From IMG/VR virus record IMGVR_UViG_3300009068_003775, positions 1 through 32,776 of that record: a stretch of 32,776 nucleotides of DNA; one strand, 5' to 3'. This document shows, piece by piece, positions 4,067 through 29,297 of this stretch (within the stretch, counting starts at the first letter, position 1; each line of letters opens with the position of its first letter). Source of the stretch: a virus. Both the position numbers and the translations under genes were made by a program. Under the pieces are notes generated by a model, which was not told where the DNA came from, ran no database searches, and saw only the letters and a program-made list of their open reading frames with translations.

Positions 4067-4669
4067 ATGCATAGAATAAAAATTATAGAAAATTTTATAT
4101 CGCCAGAGGATGCTGAAATTTTAATAAGTCAGCAGAATGACCCATTTGCCATAAGAGATCCATATCCAGATTATTATGCAGACAGGTTTGGTGGAACGTC
4201 TTTGCCATACAACAAAACCGTTATGGATATTATGGTTAAATATGGAAACTTATCTAATGAGGTTCATAGGGAGCAAAATGGTTTTGTTAATCCTATATAC
4301 GTATTCAAAGGTTTTGGATCTCACTGGATCAAAGGAACAAAAGGTGGACTACACATAGATGCACAAGGTCCTGAGCCATTCATTGAATTTAGTACTATCT
4401 TGTACCTAAATGAAGAACCAGATTACTCTGGAGGAAAAATATATTTTCCAAATCAAAATTTTGAATATCAACCTAAAAAATATTCAGCAGTATTTTTTCC
4501 AGGTGCTGGATCTGAATACATACACGGCATAACAACGGTTACAGAGGGTCATAGGTATACTGCTTTATTTATGCACACATCAATGCCAGAGCATGCAGAT
4601 CCAGATTTTTTAGGTGAAGATAAAAGTCCACAATGGGAAGCAATGAGGTATCCACTTGCAAAACTTTGA
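4067..4669 (+). CDS. 2OG/Fe(II)-dependent oxygenase, prolyl-4-hydroxylase type
   Basis: 200 residues with the double-stranded beta-helix signature of the family: iron ligands His96-x-Asp98 (GLHID) and His153 (YIHG), and Arg163 (GHRYTALF) for 2-oxoglutarate. The linking strand LYLNEEPDYSGGKIYFP and the turn FFPGAGSEYIHG are typical of prolyl hydroxylase-like enzymes. It would hydroxylate an unknown substrate using O2 and 2-oxoglutarate. It has its own -10 box and RBS and overlaps the next oxygenase gene by 14 nt. Confidence 0.85.
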   Translation: MHRIKIIENFISPEDAEILISQQNDPFAIRDPYPDYYADRFGGTSLPYNKTVMDIMVKYGNLSNEVHREQNGFVNPIYVFKGFGSHWIKGTKGGLHIDAQGPEPFIEFSTILYLNEEPDYSGGKIYFPNQNFEYQPKKYSAVFFPGAGSEYIHGITTVTEGHRYTALFMHTSMPEHADPDFLGEDKSPQWEAMRYPLAKL

Positions 4670-5327
4670 TTATGAAATACTAGATTTAGGTTTGGTTTAC
4701 TATAAAAATATAGTTAAAGACCCAGAAAAATTAATAAAAATTATTGAGCAACTTGATAAAAAAATAACTCAAACTCCTCAATCTATTGAGGGCACATCAG
4801 CAAGACCATGGACACCTTGGCAATACAATAAAGGAAATGAAACACTACAGTTTTGTTTGCAAAAATTTATTCCACAGGTTTCTGATATAGGTCCAGATGA
4901 TATTTATAGAGATGAACAACTAACTATTTCTTCAGAACTTTTTGGTGCATTAGAAAAAACTTTACTTCACTACTCTAGTGTTCTTTATCCATTTGCAGAA
5001 AAAAATATCAAATCAAGAGAAAGAACTATGCATTTGTTAAAATATGAGAATGATGGATATTTGCCAGCACATCAAGATCAAGGGGTTAGCACAAGAGTTT
5101 TATCTGTTTTGCTGTACCTAAATAACGACTACGAAGGCGGAGAAATAACTTTTCAGAATTCAAACATAACTCTAAAGCCTGATCCAGGGAGCATATTGTT
5201 TTTCCCATCAAATTTCTTGTATGTTCATGAAGTTGCTCCAATTACAAAGGGTCCAAGGTATGCTTTACCAAACTGGTACCACAATGTAACTCAAGAATCT
5301 TTTAGAAATTCAACAGGAGAAGAATGA
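4656..5327 (+). CDS. 2OG/Fe(II)-dependent oxygenase, prolyl-4-hydroxylase type
   Basis: 223 residues from a TTG start inside the end of the previous gene. Ligands: His139-x-Asp141 (AHQD), His191 (YVHEV) and Arg201 (GPRYALPNW). The strand LLYLNNDYEGGEITF is the family hallmark and is shared nearly word for word with the oxygenases at 17678 and 19136. The stop codon overlaps the next ATG (ATGA). The pair with 4067-4669 suggests two hydroxylations in one pathway. A start further downstream is possible, but no ATG offers the full N-terminus. Confidence 0.85.
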   Translation: MQNFDYEILDLGLVYYKNIVKDPEKLIKIIEQLDKKITQTPQSIEGTSARPWTPWQYNKGNETLQFCLQKFIPQVSDIGPDDIYRDEQLTISSELFGALEKTLLHYSSVLYPFAEKNIKSRERTMHLLKYENDGYLPAHQDQGVSTRVLSVLLYLNNDYEGGEITFQNSNITLKPDPGSILFFPSNFLYVHEVAPITKGPRYALPNWYHNVTQESFRNSTGEE

Positions 5328-5411: not shown

Positions 5412-6296
5412 ATGAATAATAAAATAAATAACCCAGAAGAATACCCAAATGGAGAAAAATACGTAGTTAATTATTTGTTAAAAAACAAAGAAAAGGGTTT
5501 GCTATTTGCTACACACGGAACTAACAAAGGAGTCAAAGCACTAAGGCCAAAGATGCAAAACGACACCGCAATATATAGTTTAAATTCTGGATATTTTAGG
5601 TCAGACGAGTTTAACAAAAGAGACAGTGGTGGAAAAACAGTTCTTTTTGCTGGATGCTCTGTAATGTACGGAGAGGGCCATGACCTTGAGACATCTTTTG
5701 CGTACATACTTTATGAGCATTTATCAAAAAAAGAAAAACTGTCTGGATTTTTTAATATTGGCATAGGTGGCGCTACTGGATTTCAATGTATTACCTCTAT
5801 TTTTGATTATATAGATATCTATGGCAACCCAGACTCAATAGTTTTGCTTTTGCCACCACTTGAAAGAGATATGGCGTATTTTCTTAGTTATGGTAAAGGG
5901 TTTTGGGAAACTCAGTATAGAGATTCTAGAGACCAAAAAGATGCAGAAGAAGATTACAAAAGACATGTTGTACTTTTTAATCATATATATAAAATGTTGT
6001 ATTTATATTGCAAAACAAACAACATTACTTTAATAAGTTCTCATTGGGGAGAATATAAAGGTAAGGCAGTTAACATTTTTAAAAATTATCAATATACTTT
6101 TGAGCAAATGTTAGAAATTTTATATCCAGACACACATAAAAGACTAAACTATGAAATGATGCATGATGATATTTATAACTACATTCAATTAAATAAAAAT
6201 ATGGAAAATTTATTAGAAGCAAAAGATGGACAACATCAAGGAATTGCTTGGAACCATGCTGTTGCTAAACAAATAATAGAAATGTTTAAACTTTAA
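5412..6296 (+). CDS. SGNH/GDSL-type hydrolase
   Basis: 294 residues. Block I is VLFAGCSVMYGEG with the probable nucleophile Ser83; block II is NIGIGGATGFQC with the oxyanion Gly; block V is DGQHQG (Asp272, His275). These are the features of SGNH esterases and acyl transferases that remove or add acyl groups on sugars and other small molecules. There is no signal peptide. It sits between two oxygenases and a carbamoyltransferase, and its stop overlaps the next start by one base, so it probably acts in the same modification pathway. Confidence 0.7.
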   Translation: MNNKINNPEEYPNGEKYVVNYLLKNKEKGLLFATHGTNKGVKALRPKMQNDTAIYSLNSGYFRSDEFNKRDSGGKTVLFAGCSVMYGEGHDLETSFAYILYEHLSKKEKLSGFFNIGIGGATGFQCITSIFDYIDIYGNPDSIVLLLPPLERDMAYFLSYGKGFWETQYRDSRDQKDAEEDYKRHVVLFNHIYKMLYLYCKTNNITLISSHWGEYKGKAVNIFKNYQYTFEQMLEILYPDTHKRLNYEMMHDDIYNYIQLNKNMENLLEAKDGQHQGIAWNHAVAKQIIEMFKL

Positions 6297-7717
6297 TGAT
6301 TATTCTTGGGATTAATGAAACTTCACACGATGCTTCTGTATCATTGATTCAGAATGGAAATATATTATTTTCAGGGCATGCTGAAAGATATAGCAAACAA
6401 AAAAATGATTGGTATGTCAATGATAGTTTAATAAAAGATGCTTTACAATATGGAAGACCAGATCATATAGCCTACTACGAAAAACCTCTTCTAAAGGCCT
6501 CTAGACTGGCTTTAAGGGGTGGTTCTGGAGAATGGAAGCCAAGGTTTGAACTTCCTGGGATTCCAAGAAAATCTTTTACTCATCACTATTCCCACGCAGC
6601 AGCAGGATATTATACGAGTGCATTTAATGATGCAGTCATTGTTGTTTTAGATGCTATAGGTGAATACAATACCTCCACAATCTGGGTAGGTGAAGGTGAC
6701 AAGATTAAATTAAAATATAAGCAAAACTACCCAGTAAGTTTTGGGTTGTTCTACTCTGCATTTACACAACTAATTGGTCTTATGCCAAACCAAGAAGAAT
6801 ATATTATGATGGGTATGGCTGCTTACGGAGATTGGACAAAATATTATAAAAAAGTTGACGCATATTTTCCAAATTACGATGAGCAAAAATATAATTTTCA
6901 TAAGGGAATTACTGATTGGGGATGGGTTTCAGAACAAGATAAATTTGATATCGCAGCAGCGGTACAAATGGTATATGAGCAAAGACTAAATCAATTTATG
7001 CGTATGGCAAAATCCCTAACTGGTAAAAATAATTTAGTATTCATGGGTGGGTGTGCTCTTAACTCTTCAGCAAATACATTACTATGGAATATTTTTGATA
7101 TGATTTGGATAATGCCAAACCCTGGAGATGCTGGAAGTTCGCTTGGTGCAGCAGCAGCACTATATGGCAAACATCTTGAATGGAAAGATCCATACTTAGG
7201 TCACGATTTAGGCGGGGAATACCCAGTAAATTCAATAGTTGCTGGACTAATTAGAGATAAGATAGTAGCCGTAGCAAGCGGAAGAGCAGAATATGGTCCA
7301 AGAGCCCTGGGCAATAGAAGTATCTTGGCAGATCCTAGAGACCCAGATATTAAAGATAAGGTAAATCTAATTAAGCAGAGAGAACTTTTTAGGCCATTTG
7401 CTCCTGTTGTTATGGAAGAGTATGCAGGAAAGTGGTTTGATATGGATTTTGATTCTCCATACATGCAGTACACAGTTAAATGCTTACAGCCAGAAAAAAT
7501 ACCAGCAGTTGTACATGAAGATGGAACCTCAAGGGTTCAGACAGTAAACAAGCAGCAGCACCCAGGACTTTATGAAGTGCTGTCTAACTGGTACACAATT
7601 ACTGGCGTTCCCATCCTATTGAACACTAGTCTAAATATTAAAGGTCAACCACTACTCAACGATGAGTCTGATATTTTAGACTGGGAAAAAGAATATAACT
7701 TTACAGTATGCAGGTAA
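6296..7717 (+). CDS. O-carbamoyltransferase, NodU/CmcH/TobZ family
   Basis: 473 residues. N-terminal ASKHA-type domain: GINETSHDAS (5-14), HHYSHAAAGYYTS (from 96), VLDAIGE (Asp119) and MGGCALNSSAN. C-terminal YrdC-like domain: EYGPRALGNRSILADPR, ELFRPFAPVVMEE, AVVHEDGTSRVQTV and TGVPILLNTSLNIKGQP, all hallmarks of the family. Members make carbamoyl-adenylate from carbamoyl phosphate and ATP and pass the carbamoyl group to a hydroxyl on a sugar, antibiotic or (in some phages) a modified base. It is compact for the family. Last gene of the tailoring run; a promoter for the endolysin overlaps its end. Confidence 0.92.
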   Translation: MIILGINETSHDASVSLIQNGNILFSGHAERYSKQKNDWYVNDSLIKDALQYGRPDHIAYYEKPLLKASRLALRGGSGEWKPRFELPGIPRKSFTHHYSHAAAGYYTSAFNDAVIVVLDAIGEYNTSTIWVGEGDKIKLKYKQNYPVSFGLFYSAFTQLIGLMPNQEEYIMMGMAAYGDWTKYYKKVDAYFPNYDEQKYNFHKGITDWGWVSEQDKFDIAAAVQMVYEQRLNQFMRMAKSLTGKNNLVFMGGCALNSSANTLLWNIFDMIWIMPNPGDAGSSLGAAAALYGKHLEWKDPYLGHDLGGEYPVNSIVAGLIRDKIVAVASGRAEYGPRALGNRSILADPRDPDIKDKVNLIKQRELFRPFAPVVMEEYAGKWFDMDFDSPYMQYTVKCLQPEKIPAVVHEDGTSRVQTVNKQQHPGLYEVLSNWYTITGVPILLNTSLNIKGQPLLNDESDILDWEKEYNFTVCR

Positions 7718-9137: not shown

Positions 9138-9704
9138 ATGAATAAAATTTCTGAAACATTTAATCTTTTGCTGCACAAAAAATATGATATTTCAGAGATT
9201 AAAAACCATATATTAAAGTATGATTCCGAGTGGGATCTTGATGTGTCCAGACAAAAAAATGTAATGCATAAAGAAACAAAATCTATTTTTTTATATAAGG
9301 CTGATTTGGGTTGGGATGGAAACTCTCCTTACCAAGTTTCTGAGATTTTGATTGATCTAGAATTAAAGGCTTTATTAAGTCCAATAATATCTGATTTTGA
9401 AAAAATTCATAATGGTAAAGTTGGACATGCATTAATTGTAAAACTATATCCTGAAAAATCAGTAGGCAAGCACCAAGATAATGGATACTATCTTTTGAAC
9501 TCAAGAAGGCACCATCTTCCAATAGTTTCTGACGGACTTACAGAGTTTACAGTAAACAAAGAAACTGTCAGAATGCAAGAAGGAGAATGTTGGGAAATTA
9601 ATAATGCAAAGTTTCACTCTGCAGAAAATAAAGGATCCCAAGAAAGAATACATTTTATTTTTGATATAGTCCCAAACGAGATAATAGAAAAGAGTAACAA
9701 ATGA
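9138..9704 (+). CDS. Aspartyl/asparaginyl beta-hydroxylase-like oxygenase
   Basis: 188 residues. His112-x-Asp114 (GKHQDN), RRHHLPIV, then EGECWEINNAKFHSAEN with His160, and Arg170 in RIHFIFDIV. The pattern HQDNG...RHHLPI...G--WE-NN---H---N fits the Asp/Asn beta-hydroxylase family of 2OG/Fe(II) enzymes rather than the prolyl-hydroxylase type found elsewhere in the window. The Asp in HxD is unusual for the animal enzyme (which has one iron ligand fewer) but common in bacterial members. Its last codons overlap the next gene by 4 nt. Confidence 0.75.
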   Translation: MNKISETFNLLLHKKYDISEIKNHILKYDSEWDLDVSRQKNVMHKETKSIFLYKADLGWDGNSPYQVSEILIDLELKALLSPIISDFEKIHNGKVGHALIVKLYPEKSVGKHQDNGYYLLNSRRHHLPIVSDGLTEFTVNKETVRMQEGECWEINNAKFHSAENKGSQERIHFIFDIVPNEIIEKSNK

Positions 9705-12244: not shown

Positions 12245-14209
12245 ATGAAAATTAAATCATTACTAATATCGTTTTTTTTACTATTTCAATTTGCTCCAAG
12301 TTGTTCTGCCGTATATGGTGGAGAGTCTGCAAGTGGAAGTGTAAAGGTTGTTGGGTTTTTAGAAAACAAGGATAGCAATACTACTATCTGCTCTGGTGCA
12401 CTAATCTCAAGTCGTATTGCCGTGTCTGTTGCACACTGTTTTTTAAATAGACCAAATATGTGGGCTTTAACTCCAGGAGAAAGTGTAAACGATGGTTCTA
12501 AAGTTTTCAAAGTTGAAAAGGTTGTATTTGTTCCAGGCTACAAGTGGTCTTGGAATCCAGAAACTCAGGACTTGGGTGGATTAAAAGACGATTTTGTTTT
12601 TGTTATCTTTGCAGAAGATGTTGTTGTAAATTATCATGTAGATATTGCAAACAAAGAAGATGTTAAAAACATTAAAGAAAACAAATCCCCCCTAGTCCTT
12701 TATGGTTACGGACTAACAAGTAACAGTAGTAAAAGTGGCAATCCTAGAAAAGTAAAAAGTTTGCCAAGATTAAAAAGTGTTTCTGGATCTGAGCAGTGGT
12801 CAAGTTATCCAGGTGAGGACAAAGTCCTTGGATTTACAGAAGAACTAAAGAATGCCATATGCTCTGGTGATTCTGGAGGTCCAGTATACAGCGGAGATAA
12901 GATTGTTGCTGTAATGAATACAGGGAACGGATGTGGTCCAACAGAAGTTGCTAATGGAGGAATGTCTACACTAATATATCAATATCTGTATTTGATATCT
13001 GACATATACAAACAGCCTTCTAAAATTACTTTAGATAATCTAGATACGGATTTGACATCATCTCTGTCCTATTCAAAAATAAATAATTTTTCAGATGCTC
13101 AAAATGACATAACATTTCGCAGCAATTTATTTTTAAGCCCTACGGTTGGCAATCGACCATACAAGTTGTACCTAGAAGGATTAGAAAAAAGCGTAAAGTT
13201 TTGGTCACCAATTTATAAAAATCCAGAATTTTCTATTGTTTTATTTACTGAAGAAGATTCCGAATGGGTTGATGCAATTCAAACAAGACTAATGGGTAAA
13301 AGTTTAATAAATCCAAGACAGCAACTACAAAGTTTTAGAATTAAGGAAAGTGGATGTAATGTAGGTGGATTTTATTATCCTTCAATTATTATGTTTTGTG
13401 TAAAAACTGAAAGTGAGTTGTCATCAAACAAAATTCACAAATACTCAGCACTACATGCATTCCCACATGAGTTTACTCACCTTGTGGCTATGTGGAGTCC
13501 AGAGGCATCAGTTTTTCCATATGGGACTAACCAAAGGTTGCTGCCTTGTTGGATTAACGAAGGCTTTGCTACATTTTTTGGTATTGCTCTTGGGGCATCT
13601 AATCAAGATCCGCTTGGATATAATCGATTAGAATTTTTTAATTCGCTTACGTATCCATATGATATGAAAAGAAATCAAGAAGTAGGAACTATAAAAAAAC
13701 TCTTACTTAAGAATGATCCATCAGTTGTTATAAATCTTTTTAAGGAACTTGAGGTAACCATGGATACATGTTCAGAATCACAAAATGCCTATGTCCTGGG
13801 TGGTTTAGCAACTGAAGCAATAGTCGCAACTTATGGAGCAGAATCAATAATTAAATTTCAACAGGAGTTTGGAAAAACTGGTAACTGGAAGCCTGCATTT
13901 CAGAAAGTATTTGGAGTTAGTTCGGAAGAGTTTTACACAAAAATAACACCGTATCTTAGCAGCCAAGCAAAAAAGTTTGATAGGCCAACACCAACTCCAA
14001 CGCCTGTTCCAACAGTAACAGCAGAACCAAGACCAGAACCGACACAACAATCTATACCTTTAACAAGGGAAACTCTTGTAGAAATTTTAGTTGTTAGTGT
14101 TGATAAAAAAATAAAAAAACAAACATCAATCACTTGTTATAAAAACAAGTCAACAAAAAAGGTAACAGGATTTAATCCAGTGTGCCCTAAAGGATGGACA
14201 AAAAAATGA
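12245..14209 (+). CDS. Secreted trypsin-like protease fused to HExxH metallopeptidase domain
   Basis: 654 residues. Signal peptide at about 1-21. Residues 22-255: chymotrypsin-fold domain with His64 (SVAHC), Asp116 (KDDFVF) and Ser210 (CSGDSGGP). Residues about 300-560: HEFTH (408-412) with a downstream Glu439 in WINEG, the pattern of gluzincin zinc metallopeptidases. Then a Pro/Thr linker (PTPTPTPVPT) and a C-terminal two-Cys motif (TSITCYKNKSTKKVTGFNPVC, then PKGWTKK) that I recall from actinobacterial secreted proteins. It likely cuts envelope or extracellular proteins. RBS AAGGAAAAT. Confidence 0.8.
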   Translation: MKIKSLLISFFLLFQFAPSCSAVYGGESASGSVKVVGFLENKDSNTTICSGALISSRIAVSVAHCFLNRPNMWALTPGESVNDGSKVFKVEKVVFVPGYKWSWNPETQDLGGLKDDFVFVIFAEDVVVNYHVDIANKEDVKNIKENKSPLVLYGYGLTSNSSKSGNPRKVKSLPRLKSVSGSEQWSSYPGEDKVLGFTEELKNAICSGDSGGPVYSGDKIVAVMNTGNGCGPTEVANGGMSTLIYQYLYLISDIYKQPSKITLDNLDTDLTSSLSYSKINNFSDAQNDITFRSNLFLSPTVGNRPYKLYLEGLEKSVKFWSPIYKNPEFSIVLFTEEDSEWVDAIQTRLMGKSLINPRQQLQSFRIKESGCNVGGFYYPSIIMFCVKTESELSSNKIHKYSALHAFPHEFTHLVAMWSPEASVFPYGTNQRLLPCWINEGFATFFGIALGASNQDPLGYNRLEFFNSLTYPYDMKRNQEVGTIKKLLLKNDPSVVINLFKELEVTMDTCSESQNAYVLGGLATEAIVATYGAESIIKFQQEFGKTGNWKPAFQKVFGVSSEEFYTKITPYLSSQAKKFDRPTPTPTPVPTVTAEPRPEPTQQSIPLTRETLVEILVVSVDKKIKKQTSITCYKNKSTKKVTGFNPVCPKGWTKK

Positions 14210-14418: not shown

Positions 14419-14700
14419 ATGAATAAATATGAATGGAAAGATGAGGCTTTATGCTTAGGCTATGACACAAATTTATTTTTTGATAAATATGAAGAAGATG
14501 AATTTTTAAGGCCAGCAATAGATAAGTTGTGCTCAGAATGCCCAGTTAGGAAAAATTGTTTTTCTGTTGGGATTACTGGTAAAGAGTGGGGAATTTGGGG
14601 CGGTATCTATTTGGAAGATGGAGTAATATCTAGAGAGTTTGCAAAACATAAGAATAAGAATGATTGGGGAACAACTTGGAAATCTTTAACATTGGAGTAA
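14419..14700 (+). CDS. WhiB-family [4Fe-4S] transcriptional regulator
   Basis: 93 residues. Four Cys at 12, 38, 41 and 47 in the order C-x25-C-x2-C-x5-C (LCSECPVRKNC) bind the iron-sulphur cluster, and EWGIWGGIYLED is the G-[VI]-W-G-G turn that contacts sigma factor. WhiB proteins are confined to Actinobacteria and their phages, where they tune sigmaA-dependent promoters. The usual basic C-terminal tail is short here (FAKHKNKNDWG). Start follows the previous stop directly. Confidence 0.9.
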   Translation: MNKYEWKDEALCLGYDTNLFFDKYEEDEFLRPAIDKLCSECPVRKNCFSVGITGKEWGIWGGIYLEDGVISREFAKHKNKNDWGTTWKSLTLE

Positions 14701-14701
14701 T

Positions 14702-14941
14702 ATGTATACGGATTCAATGAAAAGGGCTTTTAGATCTCTTACACCTCCCAAAAATTTTTCTTTACAGATTATTGACAATGATAATTTTTTAACAGTAAAG
14801 GCTAAAGAAAAAGATTTTATGTCTTTAGAAACAGTTGAACTTAAAAAACAGGCTATAGAATATATGATACGTGTAAAAAAGGCATTGGAAGATAATGGCG
14901 CTATAGTTTTACTAGTTCGTGAAGGTGGGAAAGAGATTTGA
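14702..14941 (+). CDS. Hypothetical protein preceding the halogenase
   Basis: 79 residues, alpha/beta by composition: strand-like FSLQIIDNDNFLTVKAKE, helix METVELKKQAIEYMIRVKKALEDNG, strand AIVLLVREGG. No family recognised. The TGA overlaps the TTG start of the halogenase (TTGA), so the two are translationally coupled and may be functionally linked. Confidence 0.6.
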   Translation: MYTDSMKRAFRSLTPPKNFSLQIIDNDNFLTVKAKEKDFMSLETVELKKQAIEYMIRVKKALEDNGAIVLLVREGGKEI

Positions 14942-16455
14942 AAAATATAGTTGTAGTTGGTGGAGGTACAGCAGGATGGTTAACAGCCCTTGCTGCACAG
15001 AAAAGATATCCTGAGTGCTCAATCACTGTAATAGAGAGCAGAGAGATAGGAATTCTTGGAGCAGGAGAGGCATCGACCACATCTCTTATTGGATTTTTAG
15101 AATATTTAGATATAGCAATTGAAGATTTAATCAAAGAAACAAGATCAACAATAAAGGTAGCAATTAAGTTTAATAATTTTAATGAAGATGATGAAAGTTA
15201 TTATCACGAGTTTGCTATTAATAGGCCTAACCCAAAAGCAAAAGAACTTTATTTAAAAAATAAACTAGGCAGTAGTTATCCCGTTCTGCATCTTTCTTGT
15301 ATGTCAGAAAATTTGCCAGAAAAAGAATACAAATTAAGCGCCATGGCATTAGATTCAAACAATTTGCCATTTGTAAGTAAAAATGAAAATCCATCAAAAA
15401 TATCAGACTTTGAAGTATATAACTTATACGGAATACATTTTGACGCAAGAGCCTTGGCTAAGTTTCTATCAGAAATTGCAATAGATCGTGGAGTGATTCA
15501 CATAGATTCAATAGTAGATGAGTTTATTCAAGATAATGATGGAAACATAGAAAGTATCAAGTTGATCGATGGCTCCACAATCATGTCAGACTTTGTTTTT
15601 GATTGCACTGGGTTTGCTAGAATAATAAATAAAAAACTTTTTAATACAGAATGGGTAAGTTTTTCAAACAATTTACCAGCCAAAAGAGCAGTGCCATTTT
15701 TTCTTGATATTGATAAAGATGAAATGCCAGCATACACAGAGTCTACTGCCATGAACTATGGCTGGATGTGGAAAATTCCTTTACAGCATAGATATGGTTG
15801 TGGATATGTTTTTGATTCTAATTATATAACTGACGAACAAGCCATATTGGAGATTGAAGAAAAACTAGGGCATAAGATTGAATCTCCAAAAACATTTAGT
15901 TTTGAACCAGGGTACTACAAGACAATATGGAATAAAAATACTATAGCGGTAGGTCTTTCAGCAGGGTTTGTTGAACCTTTAGAGGCAACATCAATTATGC
16001 AGTCTGTAGAAACTCTTAGCCTTATTTTTAAAAATAACTATGATATATTTAATCCAAAGGGTTTAGTTGCAATACTTAATAAAAAATATGCTGAAGATTG
16101 TGAAGAAATTCGTGACTTTTTGTACTTGCACTATATGACAAACAAAACTAATACAGAATTTTGGGCTAATTTTACTAAAAATAATACGATGCCAGAAAGT
16201 CTCAAGACTACTCTTGAAACACTTAATGCTATAGAATATGGTGAACTAAGAAACCCTTACTTTAATAAAATAAATTATTATATTATTATGTATGGAAATA
16301 AAATATTAGATAAAGAGTTTTTAAAAGAAGTTAAAAGTATTTTTGAATCAGAAAAAAATACAATAAAAAAAATTAATAAAAATAAAAAAGATTTATCAAA
16401 CAGTTTTGTTAATCATTCTGAATTTATTAAGAGGGTTGGTGGTTTTAATGAATAA
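14938..16455 (+). CDS. Flavin-dependent (tryptophan-type) halogenase
   Basis: 505 residues, TTG start. FAD site VVVGGGTAGWLTA (residues 5-17); catalytic-lysine region STIKVAIKF (Lys73, matching Lys79 of PrnA); FDCTGFAR; halogenase signature WMWKIP (Trp276-Pro281), which separates these enzymes from monooxygenases; and GLSAGFVEPLEATSI, where Glu349-Ala-Thr351 aligns with Glu346-Ser-Thr348 of PrnA near the chloride site (the following Gly is Ser here). Such enzymes make HOCl/HOBr from FADH2, O2 and halide and halogenate aromatic substrates. Needs a flavin reductase, not seen here. A phage halogenase, VirX1 from a marine cyanophage, is a known precedent. Confidence 0.92.
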   Translation: MKNIVVVGGGTAGWLTALAAQKRYPECSITVIESREIGILGAGEASTTSLIGFLEYLDIAIEDLIKETRSTIKVAIKFNNFNEDDESYYHEFAINRPNPKAKELYLKNKLGSSYPVLHLSCMSENLPEKEYKLSAMALDSNNLPFVSKNENPSKISDFEVYNLYGIHFDARALAKFLSEIAIDRGVIHIDSIVDEFIQDNDGNIESIKLIDGSTIMSDFVFDCTGFARIINKKLFNTEWVSFSNNLPAKRAVPFFLDIDKDEMPAYTESTAMNYGWMWKIPLQHRYGCGYVFDSNYITDEQAILEIEEKLGHKIESPKTFSFEPGYYKTIWNKNTIAVGLSAGFVEPLEATSIMQSVETLSLIFKNNYDIFNPKGLVAILNKKYAEDCEEIRDFLYLHYMTNKTNTEFWANFTKNNTMPESLKTTLETLNAIEYGELRNPYFNKINYYIIMYGNKILDKEFLKEVKSIFESEKNTIKKINKNKKDLSNSFVNHSEFIKRVGGFNE

Positions 16456-16732
16456 AATAAAGGTTTTGCTTTCTGTTTTGTCAAAAATGAAAAACAGATC
16501 TTACTGGAATAAAGAAAATACTACTGAATTTTTTGCTTTTATGACAAAGATAGTTATTATTGTACCTGGTTTGTTATTTGGGATACAGTATTGGTGGCTA
16601 TACATTTTTGCATTATTCTCTAGTCTAGCATTGATATGGACTTCAACGGTAAAAACACTACCAACAATTATAATATTTAATGTTATATGGACAACACTTG
16701 CTACAACTGCTATACTTAAGTATTGGATATAG
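16448..16732 (+). CDS. Small multi-pass membrane protein
   Basis: 94 residues from ATG 16448, which overlaps the end of the halogenase gene; a longer in-frame start at 16406 would lie wholly inside that gene. After a basic N-terminus (MKNRSYWNKEN), two or three hydrophobic segments follow: FFAFMTKIVIIVPGLLFGIQYWWLYIFALFSSLALIW and a last span IIIFNVIWTTLATTAIL. No family recognised. Could be holin-like. Confidence 0.55.
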   Translation: MNKIKVLLSVLSKMKNRSYWNKENTTEFFAFMTKIVIIVPGLLFGIQYWWLYIFALFSSLALIWTSTVKTLPTIIIFNVIWTTLATTAILKYWI

Positions 16733-16749
16733 AGAGAGTTGAGAAAAGT

Positions 16750-17133
16750 ATGACTAAACTAATAGTAATAGCATTTATATTTTCAACACTATTTTTTTTA
16801 TCAATGTATCTGTTGCAACTAAAAAAGAATCGTGCAATACTTGCAAACACTTTAAGGCTTTTAATTATTCAAGAGTCTGCTAATGCTGAAAACAAAACTG
16901 ACAAAGAAAAAACAGACGAGGCATTCTTAAAATTTATTTCAGACTCAAGAGATTGGGCATACGAGTACATAGAGACTGCACAGGCAGGAATTCAGGAGTT
17001 TGTAGACTCTGTAGGATCGGACATAGACTATATGGATAAATATAGGCCACCAGTTATATCAGAAGAATCAACTAACAGGCTTATTAATTCATACCAAAGA
17101 CTAAAAACCCTTCTTCCAGAAACAGATAAGTGA
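16750..17133 (+). CDS. Membrane-anchored coiled-coil protein, spanin- or holin-like
   Basis: 127 residues from ATG 16750 (an in-frame ATG at 16723 is possible; no clear RBS decides). One N-terminal span (LIVIAFIFSTLFFLSMYLL), then a charged helical region (about 35-110) ending RLKTLLPETDK. One membrane span followed by a coiled-coil-like domain occurs in phage lysis accessory proteins, but nothing here is diagnostic. Confidence 0.5.
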   Translation: MTKLIVIAFIFSTLFFLSMYLLQLKKNRAILANTLRLLIIQESANAENKTDKEKTDEAFLKFISDSRDWAYEYIETAQAGIQEFVDSVGSDIDYMDKYRPPVISEESTNRLINSYQRLKTLLPETDK

Positions 17134-17330: not shown

Positions 17331-17630
17331 ATGAATACAACACAACTAAAGGCAATGCTTGCATCATACGGACGATCAGTCCTTGGTGCTGCAATTGCAC
17401 TGTACGCTTCTGGCGTAACAGATCCAAAGACACTTGCTTACTCATTGCTTGGAGCCATCGTGCCCGTAGCAATTAGAGCAGTCAACCCTAACGATTCGGC
17501 ATTTGGCAAGTTGCCATCTGCAGAAGAGGTAGACAAGGCAGTTAAGACTGCTAAGGTTGTAAAGAAGACCGCAAAGAAGGCTCCTGCAAAGAAGTCATCT
17601 GGCGGAGGAAAAGGCAATGTTGCATTATAA
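17331..17630 (+). CDS. Candidate holin with the endolysin-type C-terminal tail
   Basis: 99 residues with RBS AGGAGG 8 nt upstream. SVLGAAIALYASGV and TLAYSLLGAIVPVAIRAV form one or two membrane segments, followed by a Lys/Ala-rich stretch (VKTAKVVKKTAKKAPAKK) and the terminal SSGGGKGNVAL. The last 13 residues nearly equal the end of the CHAP endolysin (KKSSGGGGKGPVAL), though the codons differ. Codon use is more GC-rich than nearby genes, as expected for a strongly expressed late gene. Last gene before a terminator. Confidence 0.6.
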   Translation: MNTTQLKAMLASYGRSVLGAAIALYASGVTDPKTLAYSLLGAIVPVAIRAVNPNDSAFGKLPSAEEVDKAVKTAKVVKKTAKKAPAKKSSGGGKGNVAL

Positions 17631-17677: not shown

Positions 17678-18391
17678 TTAAATTTCTCCAAAATTATCAT
17701 CAAAAACATATTTTAAATCAGACTGATAATATTTATTTGGATCTAACATTGAACTCCTATTTGCTCTTTCTTTTTCTGTCATAAAATTAAAGAATGTTAC
17801 CAATGTATATCTTTTATTACCACTAGTAACTGGATATATCTTATGCTCGTAACTATAGGCTGCTGGAAATAAAAATAATTGCCCTGCTTTTGGCTTAATT
17901 TTAATTCCAAAATGAATGAACTCTAGTTCTCCGCCCTCGTAATCATCATTTGGGTAATAAACAAGTGCTGTAGTTCTTGGTGTAGCAAAAGTATCATCTG
18001 CATGCATTGAAAAAAAATCACTGTTGCTATATTTTGTAATTCTCAATGACTCTCTGCTGTGTGGATCTAAATCCCAATGCCAAAGATATGAGTCTACTAC
18101 CTCTTCAAGTGCATCTTTAACTTCTTCACTATTCCAAATCCAGCAAGTTGATGCTCGTTTTCCAACTTCTTCATCTAAATAGTCTTCTCTTATCCATTGC
18201 TTTTTACCAGATACGTTATTCTGAGCATCCCAGAATTCTTCAGTATCTAATTTTTTAAAAAAATCAAGAGATGTTTCCCAAACATTGTCATAAATATGAA
18301 GTCCTGGGATTGGCGAAGTGTATGAAAATTTGTTTCCTTTTCTACTTTCGGTAACATTTTTAGTTACATTGTTTAATTTATTCTTATCCAT
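17678..18391 (-). CDS. 2OG/Fe(II)-dependent oxygenase, prolyl-4-hydroxylase type
   Basis: 237 residues. His130-x-Asp132 (SMHADD), His183 (YEHKIYPV) and Arg194 (NKRYTLVTFFNF) are the iron and co-substrate ligands; VYYPNDDYEGGELEF and KIKPKAGQLFLFPA are close to segments in the oxygenases at 4656 and 19136. RBS AAGGAG before the ATG and TATAAT (complement of 18415-18420) about 23 nt upstream. It is the only minus-strand gene here and stands back to back with the dehydrogenase gene. Substrate unknown. Confidence 0.88.
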   Translation of the reverse strand: MDKNKLNNVTKNVTESRKGNKFSYTSPIPGLHIYDNVWETSLDFFKKLDTEEFWDAQNNVSGKKQWIREDYLDEEVGKRASTCWIWNSEEVKDALEEVVDSYLWHWDLDPHSRESLRITKYSNSDFFSMHADDTFATPRTTALVYYPNDDYEGGELEFIHFGIKIKPKAGQLFLFPAAYSYEHKIYPVTSGNKRYTLVTFFNFMTEKERANRSSMLDPNKYYQSDLKYVFDDNFGEI

Positions 18392-18443: not shown

Positions 18444-19127
18444 ATGACAGAAGAAATAGATGCAAAAAATGATACAAGATTTGGAAATTGGGGCATTATA
18501 ATGATTGACCACAAGGACGAACTAATAAATAATATAGAGAATGAAGATTCTAGCCAAATTGGAAGAGATCCAGATTTTGCAGTAACAGCAGCAGAACATG
18601 CAGTTGGTCTAACAATAATGTCAATGCGTGGATTTGATTCTTTTTGTCTTGATCAAAAAAACAAGGAATTTAATCATAAACAGTTTCGGACTATAAATAA
18701 AAAAATTGTTGCAATTATTGGTAACGGTGGCGTTGGTGGAAGAATAAAACAATTTATGTCTACCTTTTATCCACTTACTCAAGTATATGCGTTTTCAAAA
18801 GATGGACATGATCAAAGTTTTACAATGGACAAATTTGATGCACTTATTCCAAAACTAGATATTATTATAGTAGCAATCCCATTAACTGATGAAACATATC
18901 ATGTTATGAGTAAAGATAGAATAAAAAACATGAAAGATGGTGCTTTGTTGGTCAACAGTGGTCGTGCTGACCTAATTGATCAAGAAGAACTTATGAAGCA
19001 TTTATATCAAAAAAGAATCTTTGCTGCTGTGGATGAAGTAAACCCAACAGTTTTACCAAAAGACCATCCAATGTGGGATGCACCTAATTTAATTATGACT
19101 CCACACATAGGTGTTAACGTAAGATAG
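18444..19127 (+). CDS. Shortened D-2-hydroxyacid dehydrogenase-like protein
   Basis: 227 residues against about 310-330 for the family. NAD-binding IIGNGGVGGR (Gly93, Gly95, Gly98), AIPLTDETYHVM, LLVNSGRADLID (Arg174), AVDEVNP (Glu198) and MTPHIG (His221) give the Arg-Glu-His catalytic set. The substrate-binding N-terminal domain is mostly absent: only the linker helix AAEHAVGLTIMSMRGF precedes the nucleotide fold, and the C-terminal tail is missing. The leaderless start and intact frame suggest a functional compact form rather than a decayed gene. It would oxidise or reduce a 2-hydroxy acid or only bind NAD. First of a five-gene run. Confidence 0.75.
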   Translation: MTEEIDAKNDTRFGNWGIIMIDHKDELINNIENEDSSQIGRDPDFAVTAAEHAVGLTIMSMRGFDSFCLDQKNKEFNHKQFRTINKKIVAIIGNGGVGGRIKQFMSTFYPLTQVYAFSKDGHDQSFTMDKFDALIPKLDIIIVAIPLTDETYHVMSKDRIKNMKDGALLVNSGRADLIDQEELMKHLYQKRIFAAVDEVNPTVLPKDHPMWDAPNLIMTPHIGVNVR

Positions 19128-19135
19128 GAGATAAT

Positions 19136-19795
19136 ATGCAAATAGACTCAATTTCAGAAAAAATTGGCAATAAAGAAAACAATATAAGAATCATAGATGA
19201 TTTTATTACAAATGATGACAGGCTTGCAATTTTAGAATACTGCAAAAAAATGGCAAACTCAGAAGGAAAGACTGCTTTTTATAGTATGCCAATGAGTAGT
19301 GAACTTAAGCATTTATATTTAAAGTATACAAGGAAGATGATTCAGAGCGCTGAAGACTTCTATAATGATATCTGCCCAATAACAAAGTATGATTTGCCAA
19401 ACGATGATAATGATCCTTCTTGGTCTGATCACCATGTCTTTGCAGCAGGAATACTTTGTCATCCACCAAAATCTTTTATGCATCCACATATAGATGTTGT
19501 TGGGTTTGTTCAAGAAGAGGGCTACAACATGCCAGATCCAGAAAGCAAATGGTCAGGACATCTTTCTTCGGTTATATATCTTAATGATGACTATGAAGGT
19601 GGAGAGTTGTATTTTAAAGATAGAGGAGTATACATTAAGCCAAAAGCAGGACAACTAATTGGGTTTCCTGGCAATAGACACTACAAGCACGGAGTTACTG
19701 AGATTATTGGCAAAGATAGATTTACCCTATCCAGTTGGTTACGTTTTGAAGAGGCTAATGGTAAAGAACTATATTCTTACGGTATTGAAAAATGA
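19136..19795 (+). CDS. 2OG/Fe(II)-dependent oxygenase, prolyl-4-hydroxylase type
   Basis: 219 residues. His118-x-Asp120 (HPHID), His185 (YKHGVTEI) and Arg195 (KDRFTLSSWLRF). VIYLNDDYEGGELYF and YIKPKAGQLIGFPGN are typical. RBS AGGAGA upstream of the ATG; the stop overlaps the next start (ATGA). Most like the enzyme at 17678, across the divergent promoter, and probably derived from a common ancestor with it. Confidence 0.9.
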   Translation: MQIDSISEKIGNKENNIRIIDDFITNDDRLAILEYCKKMANSEGKTAFYSMPMSSELKHLYLKYTRKMIQSAEDFYNDICPITKYDLPNDDNDPSWSDHHVFAAGILCHPPKSFMHPHIDVVGFVQEEGYNMPDPESKWSGHLSSVIYLNDDYEGGELYFKDRGVYIKPKAGQLIGFPGNRHYKHGVTEIIGKDRFTLSSWLRFEEANGKELYSYGIEK

Positions 19796-20541
19796 ACGGA
19801 AGACTAATAGTCGCTGGTGTTGGTATTGGAAATTGGTCAGACACACCACAAAGAACAATTCTAGAGTTATCAAATCCAAATAACATAATGATTTCTGAAA
19901 ATGCAGAGGGCACGGTGCGTGATTTTAAGCAAAATGGAATTTCTGTAACTACAAAACAATATACATATCTTCCTCACTTTGAAAATGGAGTTCATGTAAA
20001 TGCAACTGAGATAGATTCTTTTGTTAAAATGATTGAAAATGGAGAAACCCTGGTCCTCGTTTCATCTGAAGGTATGCCACTAATACATGATCCTGGGTAT
20101 GAGTTGGTAAGGAAGGTTAGGGAAAGAAACCTGCCTATAACTGTTATTCCTGGTCCGTGTGCGGTTACTGCTGCATTAAATGTTAGCGGGATAGACTCTT
20201 GGAAGTATGTTTTTGAATCTGACATTCCAACAAATAAGAAAGAAAGATTAGAGATTTTTGAAGAATTAAAAAATAGAGATAAGACTACTGTTTTTTTTGA
20301 AAAAGACTTTAACTTGTTAGACTCAGTAACTGATTTAGCAAATACTTTAGAGTCCTCTAGACCAGTTTCTTTATGCATAGACATGACATCTGTAAAAGAA
20401 AAAATTATTAGGTGCACAATACAAGAACTATTGAACTGGTGTAACAATAATGATTTTCTAGGAAAATCTGAAGAAGAGGTAAAAATGGTACTAGTTGTTT
20501 GTGGATCTGGATATTACAAACCAACAGAGATAAATAAGTGA
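19792..20541 (+). CDS. Tetrapyrrole-methylase-family (RsmI-like) SAM methyltransferase
   Basis: 249 residues. VSSEGMPLIHDPGYELVRKV, then LPITVIPGPCAVTAALNVSG closely follow RsmI motifs (D-G-P-I-DPG--LV and V-PGPsA---AL). The first strand LIVAGVGIGNW and end VKMVLVVCGSG complete the fold. RsmI 2'-O-methylates C1402 of 16S rRNA; other members methylate precorrins or backbone amides. The segment after the first strand is unlike RsmI, so the substrate may differ. Coupled to the oxygenase by ATGA. Confidence 0.85.
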   Translation: MNGRLIVAGVGIGNWSDTPQRTILELSNPNNIMISENAEGTVRDFKQNGISVTTKQYTYLPHFENGVHVNATEIDSFVKMIENGETLVLVSSEGMPLIHDPGYELVRKVRERNLPITVIPGPCAVTAALNVSGIDSWKYVFESDIPTNKKERLEIFEELKNRDKTTVFFEKDFNLLDSVTDLANTLESSRPVSLCIDMTSVKEKIIRCTIQELLNWCNNNDFLGKSEEEVKMVLVVCGSGYYKPTEINK

Positions 20542-20551
20542 TTTAAAATTT

Positions 20552-21211
20552 ATGAAAATTCTTATTAACTCCTATCCAAGATCAGGTACAACTACGCTTG
20601 TAGATGCAATTCGAGCAGCAACAATTTCAAAAAACTTAATGTTTGGAGAAGATTTTTTTCATAATGAAGATTGGATATCTAAGTCTCATTTGCCTGTATT
20701 GTTTTTAGGAACATTCCCATCAGATGTATTAATAGGAACTGTTATACGAGACCCACTTGACGCTATATCCTCTAATTGTTTTAGATGGGTCAATGGGTAT
20801 ACTGGTAATATTGTACAGGGAAAGGTTGTTATTGATAAAAGTAGAGAATCAAAAGAAAATAAATTTGACAAAGAAGTTATGTCATTAATCGATCACCAAG
20901 TAAATCAGTATATATCTTATTACTCATGTCTGCTTTCAAACATAGATAAAATTTTATTGTTCCGATATGACAAAATACAAAATGATATAGATAGTGCAAT
21001 TAACAGAGTTGTTTCTGCAGCGGGTGGGAACAAGGAATCATTAAACTACACCGCTGCACAAAAAGTTATAAAAAATCCACCACAACCAACCAAAGAAAAA
21101 ACAGTTCTTTACTTTAAGATAAGAGAGCATATAAAATCACTTACAACTTTAAACGATGCTTATCGTTTATATGATGAAGCACTAAGAATAGAAAAGGATA
21201 AAAATGAATAA
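20552..21211 (+). CDS. PAPS-dependent sulfotransferase family protein
   Basis: 219 residues. SYPRSGTTTL (7-16) is the 5'-phosphosulfate loop and GTVIRDPLDAISSN (Arg66, Asp67, Pro68, with following Ser) is the 3'-phosphate-binding motif of PAPS sulfotransferases. It would move sulphate from PAPS to a hydroxyl or amine. It lies between two methylase genes; no clear RBS precedes the ATG, 10 nt after the previous stop. A distant relative is encoded at 24431-25000 on the other strand. Confidence 0.85.
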   Translation: MKILINSYPRSGTTTLVDAIRAATISKNLMFGEDFFHNEDWISKSHLPVLFLGTFPSDVLIGTVIRDPLDAISSNCFRWVNGYTGNIVQGKVVIDKSRESKENKFDKEVMSLIDHQVNQYISYYSCLLSNIDKILLFRYDKIQNDIDSAINRVVSAAGGNKESLNYTAAQKVIKNPPQPTKEKTVLYFKIREHIKSLTTLNDAYRLYDEALRIEKDKNE

Positions 21212-21977
21212 GTTTTACATTGGGGCTACTCCTATTGGAGGCCTACATGATGTCACAAAAAGAACTCTTGATATAGTTAAGGCAGCAGACTACATAGTTT
21301 GCGAACTTATTCCTATTGTTAAACAAACTATTGAAAATGGAAACTGGGAAACAAATGCAGAGTATCTAGAGTATTGTGTTGATTTTACTGGAGGTTCTAA
21401 AACATCTGGAAATAGAAACTCAGAAGGTAAAAGCCACGGGTCTATGAGTGTAGATGGAATAAAAGAAAAGATATTGCAATTAGTAAAAGATGGAAAAACC
21501 ATGATCTATTTACCAGAAAGAGGATCTGTTGGTATTGAAGACCCTGGGCTTGACCTAAAACAATTTCTAGAGGATCATGGCATTGTTGTTGAATTGCTAC
21601 CAGGTGTAGACTCTGTTACGTCTTCCCTGCTATCTTCTAAAATATTTCCAACTCCAGAAAGCCACAGAGCATGGTCTTTTCAGCCAATTGTTGATCTAAG
21701 TTTTGAGCAGATGGATAAGTTTATTGGTCAGTATTCATCAAGCCCAAATGTCTTAATTTTTCAAGTACATGATCCAGAAATGTTTGATGCTATATCTTTA
21801 ATGAAAAAACACTATGGCCCCAGCAGAGAAATATCCATATGCATGAATGTAAGTCTGGGTGATGAAATAATACACAAAAGCACAATCGGTGAAGTTTTAG
21901 AAAATTTTGACATTAAAAAATATGAGCAGCACTACACAACCATTGTCGTTGCTGGACAAAATATATGGCCATCATAA
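21204..21977 (+). CDS. Tetrapyrrole-methylase-family (RsmI-like) SAM methyltransferase, second copy
   Basis: 257 residues. FYIGATPIGGLHDVTKRTLDI is a near-perfect RsmI N-terminus (TPIGNL-D-T-RAL); then YLPERGSVGIEDPGLDLKQF and VELLPGVDSVTSSLLSS correspond to the DPG and PG-s motifs, with changes (E-R-G-S-V for D-A-G-T-P). RBS AAAGGA upstream; start overlaps the sulfotransferase stop by 8 nt. The two methylases are about equally distant from RsmI but not close to each other, so they probably differ in substrate. Confidence 0.83.
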   Translation: MNKFYIGATPIGGLHDVTKRTLDIVKAADYIVCELIPIVKQTIENGNWETNAEYLEYCVDFTGGSKTSGNRNSEGKSHGSMSVDGIKEKILQLVKDGKTMIYLPERGSVGIEDPGLDLKQFLEDHGIVVELLPGVDSVTSSLLSSKIFPTPESHRAWSFQPIVDLSFEQMDKFIGQYSSSPNVLIFQVHDPEMFDAISLMKKHYGPSREISICMNVSLGDEIIHKSTIGEVLENFDIKKYEQHYTTIVVAGQNIWPS

Positions 21978-23707: not shown

Positions 23708-23709
23708 AG

Positions 23710-23783
23710 TACCCCTGGCAAGAATCGAACTTGCGACGCATGGCTTAGAAGTCCATCGTTCTGTCCACTGAACTACAGAGGTA
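23710..23783 (-). tRNA. tRNA-Arg (anticodon TCT)
   Basis: On the minus strand the acceptor arms TACCTCT and AGGGGTA pair (one G-U). The anticodon loop CTTCTAA carries TCT, which reads AGA/AGG. T-arm with GTTCGATTC. CCA not encoded. AGA is the main Arg codon of the phage genes here. Confidence 0.93.
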
Positions 23784-23786
23784 TTG

Positions 23787-23869
23787 CGGAAATAATAGGA
23801 TTCGAACCTATGGATCTTTCGATCTACGATTTAGCAAACCGTTGCATTCGACCACTCTGCCATATTTCC
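23787..23869 (-). tRNA. tRNA-Ser (anticodon GCT)
   Basis: Class II tRNA: acceptor GGAAATA/TATTTCC, anticodon stem-loop ACGGT-TTGCTAA-ATCGT with GCT, and a long variable arm AGATC-GAAA-GATC, as in serine tRNAs. Reads AGC/AGU. Confidence 0.93.
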
Positions 23870-23875
23870 ATTTTG

Positions 23876-23948
23876 CTGGGGATGCAGGCATCGATCCTGC
23901 GACATCCGAATTAACAGTTCGGCACTCTACCATCTGAGTTAATCCCCA
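23876..23948 (-). tRNA. tRNA-Asn (anticodon GTT)
   Basis: Acceptor TGGGGAT/ATCCCCA, anticodon stem-loop CCGAA-CTGTTAA-TTCGG with GTT. The T loop is ATCGATG with A at the usual T54, a small departure from consensus. Confidence 0.92.
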
Positions 23949-23952
23949 TTAG

Positions 23953-24026
23953 TACATCTGGAAGGACTTGAACCTTCGGCTCTCTGCATATAAGGCAGGT
24001 ACTCTAACCAACTGAGTTACAGATGT
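23953..24026 (-). tRNA. tRNA-Ile (anticodon TAT)
   Basis: Acceptor ACATCTG/CAGATGT, anticodon arm CCTGC-CTTATAT-GCAGA, anticodon TAT, T arm GAAGG-TTCAAGT-CCTTC. It reads AUA directly, without the lysidine-modified CAT tRNA normally used by bacteria. AUA is frequent in the genes of this window. Confidence 0.9.
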
Positions 24027-24030
24027 TTAG

Positions 24031-24104
24031 TACACCAGGTAGGACTTGAACCTACGATAGCCGAATTATGAGTTCGGTGCCTTAACCAACTTGGCTACTG
24101 GTGC
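24031..24104 (-). tRNA. tRNA-Met (anticodon CAT), elongator type
   Basis: Acceptor GCACCAG/CTGGTGT (first pair G-U), anticodon arm CCGAA-CTCATAA-TTCGG. It lacks the GGG/CCC anticodon-stem pairs of initiator tRNA. Ile(CAT, lysidine) is the alternative, but the adjacent Ile(TAT) makes Met more likely. Confidence 0.88.
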
Positions 24105-26822: not shown

Positions 26823-27629
26823 TCAGTCAACTTCTTGAGATAAATCTTTTACTAATCTAAATATTTGATCAATATTTTTTTGATCTGTATGTATCATAAA
26901 ATCATTAATGTTATTGCCAATTGATATTTCTTTGATTATTTCCTTAACATGATCATATGTGCCCTTGGGGAAATGGTTAGGTTTTTTTGTAAATTTATAA
27001 TCGTGATACTCAATATCGTCTTCACTCATACCATCTTCAAGGATTAAGGGATCAATACACAGGATTGGCTTTGTATTTGTAAGTTGACCCCTTTTACCAT
27101 CTATTAAAATATCACCATTGATAATCATATAATCAGTATAGTTATTTGCTATTCTTATAGTTATTTCAGATGATCCAACAACCATTAATTTTGTTGTGTA
27201 TTCTTCATCTTTTATAATACTAACAAACTTTTCCATCCATTTTTCAGTCATTTCAACTCTCTTTGTATGTGTATCAACTAAAGAAGAGTCTCCAGGATAT
27301 TTATCAATAACTGTTTGCTCAAACTCGTCGCTGTATCTTCCAGCAACAAGGTTTAGGTCTACCCTATTATCTCCAAATTTTTGTGCTGTAAAAAATGTTT
27401 TTGCAACATATTCTGGTGTAACTGCATAAGCCCCAGCAGCGAGTATAATTCTAATTTTTTTAGTTGACCTAAAAATATCTGGAAGAAACATGGAAAAATC
27501 ATTACCTCCTGGACCATAAGGCATCAAAACTGATTCTATGTTTGCATCCTCTAACTGTTTTGCCATTTCTACCAGGCCTTCGGTGGTATTTGGCCAATGA
27601 ATTCTTTGCATCCAGTGAAAATTTAACAT
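26823..27629 (-). CDS. Luciferase-like (SsuD-type) flavin or F420 monooxygenase
   Basis: 268 residues from ATG 27629, chosen over the in-frame GTG at 27644 because TATACT (complement of 27636-27641) ends six bases before it. N-terminal MLNFHWMQRIHWPNT, AKQLEDANIESVLMPYGPGGNDF, KIRIILAAGAYAVTPEYVAK and RVDLNLVAGRYSDEF match the TIM-barrel luciferase-like family, most like alkanesulfonate monooxygenases. The C-terminal part is shorter and less conserved. The cofactor may be FMNH2 or F420; no reductase is seen nearby. Divergent from the gene at 27675. Confidence 0.8.
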   Translation of the reverse strand: MLNFHWMQRIHWPNTTEGLVEMAKQLEDANIESVLMPYGPGGNDFSMFLPDIFRSTKKIRIILAAGAYAVTPEYVAKTFFTAQKFGDNRVDLNLVAGRYSDEFEQTVIDKYPGDSSLVDTHTKRVEMTEKWMEKFVSIIKDEEYTTKLMVVGSSEITIRIANNYTDYMIINGDILIDGKRGQLTNTKPILCIDPLILEDGMSEDDIEYHDYKFTKKPNHFPKGTYDHVKEIIKEISIGNNINDFMIHTDQKNIDQIFRLVKDLSQEVD

Positions 27630-27674
27630 ATCTATAGTATACACTATACAAAGTTATTGGTGTATAATGGTTAA
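27630..27674. promoter_or_regulatory. Divergent leaderless promoter pair
   Basis: Minus-strand TATACT (27636-27641) serves the luciferase-like gene and plus-strand TATAAT (27663-27668) serves the gene at 27675. Each is six bases from its start codon. A 10-bp palindrome AGTATACACT-like segment lies at the minus -10. Confidence 0.65.
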
Positions 27675-28541: not shown

Positions 28542-28682
28542 TCACTCAAAATCAACCTGAGCCTCAAACATATCTAATGTTATTGGAGTTGATGCGTCAT
28601 CATCCATAGCCCCACAAACAGCACAGGTTACCTGGCCATCAAGGTCTAATTGGTAGTCGCACCCATACTTTGTACATGTCAT
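28542..28682 (-). CDS. 46-residue Cys-rich protein
   Basis: MTCTKYGCDYQLDLDGQVTC continues AVCGAMDDDASTPITLDMFE and AQVDFE. Four Cys (C3, C8, C20, C23) could bind zinc; acidic C-terminus. Leaderless start: TATGAT (complement of 28689-28694), six bases, ATG. Divergent from 28719. Confidence 0.65.
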   Translation of the reverse strand: MTCTKYGCDYQLDLDGQVTCAVCGAMDDDASTPITLDMFEAQVDFE

Positions 28683-28718
28683 ATATACATCATACCACTT
28701 CATGGTATACTTGTCAAT

Positions 28719-29297
28719 ATGGAGCCAGTAAGAGTATTAAAAAATTCTATAAACAGTGAAGATGCTGAATTTATAATTAATTATATAAACAAAAATCAAG
28801 ATTCTTTTATTACTGGACCAAAAAGACTAAGATTCCAAAAAATGTTTGGAGATGACAAATTTCACAAACAACAATCAGCAAAAATTATTACTGGTATAGA
28901 CGAAATACAAAACAAAATAGAAACAATTATTAATCTTTCAGTAAAATCTATATCAGATGAATTTAAGGATAATCAACAATTATATCTTTCATCGTTTTGG
29001 TTAGCAAAACAATTACCTGGCGCTCAAGTTAGTGGACACTTAGACACAGACTCTGGGTTTAATGATCATTACGAATACAGCGCTATATTGTACTTAAATA
29101 CTCCTAACAACTCTGGCCCATTGGAGTTCCCGTACCTTAGTCTGGAAATTATGCCCATGTCTGGAGATTTAGTTATATTTAAGTCGGCGGAAAATACATC
29201 TTTTCATGAAGTAAAATTTATAAATGAAGACAGGTACTCGGTCCTTTTGTGGTTTACTAAGGATAAAAATTATGAATTAAAGTTCGGCGAAAAATAG
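28719..29297 (+). CDS. 2OG/Fe(II)-dependent oxygenase, prolyl-4-hydroxylase type
   Basis: 192 residues from ATG 28719. An earlier in-frame ATG at 28650 is rejected because it lies in the divergent gene and TATACT (28706-28711) ends 7 nt before 28719. His107-x-Asp109 (SGHLDTD), His163 (SFHEVKF) and Arg172 (EDRYSVLLWF). The middle strand reads AILYLNTPNNSGPLEFP instead of YEGGE, so it is its own subgroup. Substrate unknown. Confidence 0.82.
   Translation: MEPVRVLKNSINSEDAEFIINYINKNQDSFITGPKRLRFQKMFGDDKFHKQQSAKIITGIDEIQNKIETIINLSVKSISDEFKDNQQLYLSSFWLAKQLPGAQVSGHLDTDSGFNDHYEYSAILYLNTPNNSGPLEFPYLSLEIMPMSGDLVIFKSAENTSFHEVKFINEDRYSVLLWFTKDKNYELKFGEK

Follow-up and report, generated by a model that had tools for sequence, protein, structure and literature searches.

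A flavin-dependent halogenase (FDH) gene is carried by a phage of a group that very likely infects actinobacteria, where it is accessory cargo placed behind a 79-aa core gene and is followed directly by a gene for a small tryptophan-rich protein of 94 aa, predicted from its hydropathy to be located in the membrane. On balance, we favour a reading in which a working FDH of the two-component type and this membrane protein constitute one cargo module, the membrane protein docking the enzyme or delivering its substrate or halide. The window analysed here is the whole 32,776-nt stretch of IMG/VR record IMGVR_UViG_3300009068_003775, and the genes at and around the insertion are:

14419..14700, + strand: WhiB-like regulator, a core gene that marks an actinobacterial host
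14702..14941, + strand: 79-aa core gene, upstream flank of the insertion, overlapping the FDH start by 4 nt; not a dedicated partner
14938..16455, + strand: FDH of 505 aa with a TTG start, putative catalytic Lys73 and Glu349, WMWKIP at 276-281 and halide loop T351-S352
16448..16732, + strand: 94-aa Trp-rich putative membrane protein with an ATG start at 16448, ~3 hydrophobic segments and an 8-nt overlap with the FDH end
16723..17133, + strand: core gene, downstream flank of the insertion, with a likely ATG start at 16750; where loci lack a halogenase, it directly overlaps the 79-aa gene
17331..17630, + strand: 99-aa core gene at the edge of the variable region

The original prediction of a phage-borne FDH with intact signatures is borne out by every family comparison made. 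The open reading frame at 14938-16455 (+) is uninterrupted from its TTG start, and residues 3-461 of its 505-aa product match Pfam Trp_halogenase (PF04820; E=8.1e-103, 345 bits against a cut-off of 21 bits), covering profile positions 1-449 of 458. The protein also matches PHROG 2928 'tryptophan halogenase' (1.1e-105), and the sequences that it matches in the PDB are FDHs in 30 out of 30 cases. The FAD-binding GxGxxG motif reads GGGTAGW (residues 8-14), with its glycines kept in relatives, and the WxWxIP motif reads GWMWKIP (275-281). In alignment with PrnA, the reference sequence of which was verified at full identity against PDB 2apg, Lys73 corresponds to K79 and Glu349 to E346. These signature features are invariant or nearly so among phage relatives at 34-95% identity. 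A dN/dS of ~0.15-0.23, obtained against relatives at 74-85% identity, indicates that the protein is maintained, and purifying selection was found for the 94-aa membrane-protein gene as well as for the FDH.

The halide loop lies within EPLEATS (residues 346-352), where PrnA E346-S347-T348-G349 aligns with E349-A350-T351-S352; Ala350 replaces PrnA Ser347 and, just as had been read from the sequence at the outset, Ser352 stands where Gly (PrnA Gly349) follows the loop threonine. The motif F-x-P-x-S-x-G, or a charged residue in place of G, has been given as a mark of active FDHs (PMC8407142). The stretch FVEPLEATS of the window FDH fits its F and P and deviates at two places (Ala for Ser and Ser for Gly), and a search of 8 phage records for flavin reductases of family PF01613 found none. 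Both observations would suit a protein that has lost halogenation and serves as a flavin oxidase, a monooxygenase or a source of H2O2. We regard such a loss as highly improbable, given that Lys73, Glu349 and WMWKIP, which are tied to halogenation, are kept across the clade, and that serine is the residue that most often follows the threonine in bacterial relatives (of 137, 82 have ESTS and 12 EATS), as it does in BrvH, an active brominase. At these loop places, alanine or a residue other than glycine occurs among bacterial relatives too, and also in solved FDHs such as 9lu2, 9ltb and 2pyx. The earlier suggestion that Ser for Gly may shift the choice of halide fares poorly for similar reasons: serine is the usual bacterial state, and the authors of the BrvH study, whose enzyme combines this T-S pair with a preference for bromide, saw in the substitution no explanation for that preference (PMC5945002).

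With regard to substrate, the Trp4 substrate-binding motif (PrnA 443-461) has been defined for free-tryptophan halogenases (PMC8269204). In the PrnA alignment, the region of this motif and tryptophan-binding lid is missing from the window FDH, as it is from VirX1, suggesting that the substrate is likely to be something other than free tryptophan.

A maximum-likelihood tree of 87 rows (LG+C20, quick search, with SH-aLRT as the sole support measure) placed the window FDH in a clade of phage FDHs that includes the enzyme of Pelagibacter phage HTVC008M, and a branch with SH-aLRT support of 100 divides this side of the tree from PrnA, PyrH, SttH, BrvH and VirX1; RebH, which belongs with PrnA, was left out, and the row for Actinomycetia phage DSL-LC01 sat on a very long branch, its position unsure. 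The half of the tree with the window FDH contained no characterised enzyme. The same branch rules out VirX1 (Syn10 gene CPUG_00131, 100% identical to PDB 6qgm) as the nearest relative. The protein was not placed among non-halogenating flavoprotein monooxygenases, a verdict that rests on its position in the phage FDH clade and also, because the rows of the tree were from the FDH family only, on the family and PDB matches, all of them to FDHs.

Viral halogenases had been described as rare, a view at odds with the number now on record: FDH homologues were found by tblastn in 68 GenBank phage records, mostly of cyanophages, 20 of 153 surveyed cyanophages carry an FDH (review, PMC10452541) and the viral proteins have a PHROG family of their own. 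Other GenBank phage homologues were those of HTVC008M (41% identity), Campylobacter phages and DSL-LC01 (27%). A literature search found no papers on actinophage halogenases.

The 79-aa gene at 14702 was correctly recognised as a small gene that abuts the FDH: the gene is genuine, and its end shares 4 nt with the start of the FDH. It had further been proposed as partner or substrate carrier of the enzyme, a role contradicted by its distribution as a core gene that is mostly present without any halogenase. At least 535 viral contigs carry the gene, and the fetched stretch lacked a halogenase at 68 of 76 of its loci in a first scan and at 69 of 79 in a second. At halogenase-less loci, the 79-aa gene leads directly into the homologue of the 16723 gene with a 4-nt overlap. 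The FDH is absent altogether from two 118-kb relatives, and in a second phage subclade the loci with room comprised 59 without an FDH and 10 with one (7 scored directly adjacent). Three neighbours of FDHs in that second subclade, a zinc-ribbon protein (41 aa), a single-TM protein (48 aa) and a 162-aa protein, were likewise rejected as partners, being core genes present without FDH. The downstream 94-aa gene is a better partner candidate than the upstream 79-aa gene.

Among 76 new loci of the membrane protein in the first scan, the FDH adjoined it in 73 (directly upstream in 71, directly downstream in 2); in one further locus, the FDH lay 0.66 kb downstream with a 2OG oxygenase in between, and the last two were ended by the contig edge. 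An absolute link, as the first scan had implied, was dropped when a second scan for the membrane protein, seeded from locus L274, gave exceptions: across 80 membrane-protein loci, an FDH was near in 69, none was near in 10 and one lay at a contig edge. Of these 10 exceptions, five stood alone next to the primase gene, three adjoined a CMD/AhpD-like gene and two lay elsewhere. Among the four longest of the 10 records, an FDH lies at a distance of 7.5-69 kb in three (49, 92 and 156 kb); the remaining one, an 81-kb fragment (G026), shows none, but its locus is also that of the 156-kb record. The CMD/AhpD-like gene lies directly upstream of the membrane protein (L401 2653-3255, L424 3439-3978, L439 3448-3981), with an FDH elsewhere in two of these three. 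The link between membrane protein and FDH is therefore strong, not absolute.

The pair occupies at least three genomic sites, including the 79-aa/16723 site of the window type and a 10519/10737 site, with the gene order reversed in L026, L264 and L280. Window-type, VirX1-type and short 400-aa FDHs are all found beside the membrane protein, and the VirX1-type enzyme of L274 is 38% identical to VirX1; in that locus, a 2OG oxygenase gene lies between the membrane protein and the FDH. The short divergent FDH of about 400 aa (L280 4295-5497, L264 3638-4843) carries GWVFGIP and EPLEATS and is 45% identical to a cyanophage S-RIM4 protein annotated as hypothetical.

Loci fetched via the 79-aa gene only also showed the two genes together: both were present in 8 and neither in 68, with 0 discordant. 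Twelve long contigs fetched in the same way held both genes in 3 and neither in 9 (exact test, 1 in 220), 2 of the 3 positive contigs looking like one lineage with the genes 7.5 kb apart in both. This 7.5-kb spacing indicates that hitchhiking alone is no explanation. Distance matrices of FDH and membrane protein were correlated (Mantel r=0.78, 0 of 2000 permutations), which fits genes moving together and does not by itself demonstrate function.

A rival account would make the enzyme a soluble FDH encoded by an ordinary auxiliary metabolic gene and acting on a free aromatic, such as a host or phage indole or phenol, with the membrane protein as a fellow traveller. Such an arrangement has parallels: no membrane-protein gene of this kind was found near the FDHs of cyanophages, HTVC008M and DSL-LC01, nor near those of the second phage subclade (fragments of ≤32 kb), where FDHs insert alone, and BrvH and VirX1, both without the Trp4 motif, act on indoles or other aromatics as free molecules (PMC5945002, PMC8407142). 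We nonetheless think it rather unlikely, as hitchhiking predicts linkage, yet the pair also co-occurs unlinked at 7.5-69 kb (G020, G023, G027, G034, G035), and it is seen with the genes in either order and with FDH types that are only distant relatives of one another.

The 94-aa protein had no match in Pfam, NCBIfam, PHROGs (searched with the longer ORF 16406-16732), GenBank phages or plasmids; in viral contigs, 550 matching stretches encode a relative. Seven aromatic residues (Y19, W20, W49, W50, Y52, W64 and W81) are invariant in 56 of 56 distinct homologues. MibH halogenates the NAI-107 peptide, and by analogy the membrane protein, or another polypeptide, might itself be the substrate, with the FDH halogenating its Trp or Tyr side chains. 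The invariant aromatics would fit, as would an FDH without a lid binding free tryptophan, a single partner common to several FDH types and the likening of the open BrvH site to that of MibH (PMC5945002). Aromatic residues are, however, often conserved at membrane interfaces, and most invariant positions of the protein are neither Trp nor Tyr, making a protein substrate improbable in our view. More tentatively than the module itself, and with some doubt, we suggest that interchangeable FDHs of the window, VirX1 and short 400-aa types all depend on the one 94-aa membrane protein, as docking subunit for a substrate bound to the membrane or as halogenated target.

Under the favoured cargo-module reading, we infer catalysis, supply by a host reductase and coupling to the membrane as follows. 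FDH chemistry requires FADH2 from a reductase (PMC5945002), as is also general knowledge of the family, and with no PF01613 reductase in the phage records, FADH2 would be supplied by a flavin reductase of the host. Reaction with O2 would then give the flavin C4a-hydroperoxide, to be attacked by a halide held at the Thr351-Ser352 loop, and the resulting hypohalous acid would travel through the tunnel to Lys73, with Glu349 probably helping to direct the halogen to a substrate that would be aromatic and rich in electrons but not free tryptophan. The membrane protein, inserted together with the FDH between two core genes of what is probably an aquatic actinophage, would most likely dock the enzyme at the host membrane, or bring substrate or halide from there, during infection. 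Among its possible roles we place docking or delivery of a lipophilic substrate first, with halide import, or being the target, as alternatives.

A WhiB gene is carried by the window and by 6 of 6 long relatives; run on 14 control genomes, the WhiB model was positive only in Corynebacterium. Of the genes for WhiB, portal and DNA polymerase, the 33-kb window holds only the first. In an FDH-bearing 118-kb relative, the portal is 46% and the DNA polymerase ~54% identical to those of Stanwilliamsviridae (Loccivirinae) Streptomyces phages. WhiB and the likeness of portal and polymerase suggest that the host is very likely an actinobacterium; the phages are presumably of aquatic origin.

Five other genes of the 33-kb window encode 2OG-Fe(II) oxygenases (4067-4669, 4656-5327, 17678-18391, 19136-19795 and 28650-29297) and one is Asp/Asn-hydroxylase-like (9138-9704). 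A nodulation-type (Nol-like) carbamoyltransferase (6296-7717) is 75-90% identical across the phage group, at varying positions. Two tetrapyrrole-methylase-fold genes (19792-20541 and 21204-21977), both absent from the first 48 loci fetched, flank a sulfotransferase-like gene (20552-21211), the first of them being close to the 16S rRNA C1402 2'-O-methyltransferase (RsmI, E=4e-35). A 227-aa D-2-hydroxyacid dehydrogenase NAD-binding domain (18444-19127) lies near phosphoglycerate dehydrogenase and VanH models and is shorter than the cellular enzymes. A bacterial-luciferase-like monooxygenase is encoded at 26823-27644 (-), and other members of the phage group have weak relatives of it in the corresponding variable spot, after the 16723 homologue. 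A 654-aa trypsin-like serine protease (12245-14209) is inserted between core genes; of the first related loci, L012 and L014 alone carry it. An HNH endonuclease (29541-29984, -) has an N-terminus similar to the C-terminal portion of WhiB-like proteins from phages, and five tRNA genes are clustered at 23709-24104 (-): Arg-TCT, Ser-GCT, Asn-GTT, Ile-TAT and Met-CAT.

Halogenases are thus exchangeable cargo in phages of actinobacteria too, beyond cyanophages. To our knowledge, neither the natural substrate nor the purpose of viral halogenases, VirX1 included, is known, and we know of no integral membrane protein that partners an FDH. The almost constant company of the FDH and a small undescribed membrane protein suggests a two-part system that nobody has studied. 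A partner that follows several distant FDH types over many phage contigs offers a genetic handle on the role of FDHs in infection; it directs attention to the membrane, and the two-gene unit is open to expression and testing.

The closest known systems share some features with this gene or its phage group and differ in others. Stanwilliamsviridae (Loccivirinae) share portal and DNA polymerase with the group, in genomes of ~115-130 kb; no FDH was found in those isolates, whereas the relatives here are uncultivated. PrnA (7-Trp) and PyrH/SttH (5-/6-Trp) have the FAD motif, WxWxIP, Lys79 and Glu346 in common with the window FDH, but differ in their Trp4 motif and Ser-Thr-Gly loop and lie in the opposite half of the tree. 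That half also holds BrvH (Brevundimonas, PDB 6frl), which resembles the window FDH in its Thr-Ser halide loop and missing Trp4 motif, but is bacterial and has an ESTS loop. VirX1 is known for the iodination of non-natural compounds, and iodide preference is the mark of the VirX1-type viral halogenase. Like the window FDH, VirX1 (cyanophage Syn10, 6qgm) is viral, of the same superfamily and without a tryptophan lid, with the catalytic Lys and Glu; it is only 27% identical, has ESTG as its halide loop and belongs to the PrnA/PyrH side of the tree. The HTVC008M tryptophan halogenase (AGE60413) comes from a phage of another type (Kyanoviridae) with a host of another phylum, and its gene lies between a dioxygenase and a terminase gene with no membrane partner found there or elsewhere in GenBank phages; yet it is 41% identical to the window FDH, has the EPLEATS loop and shares its supported clade.
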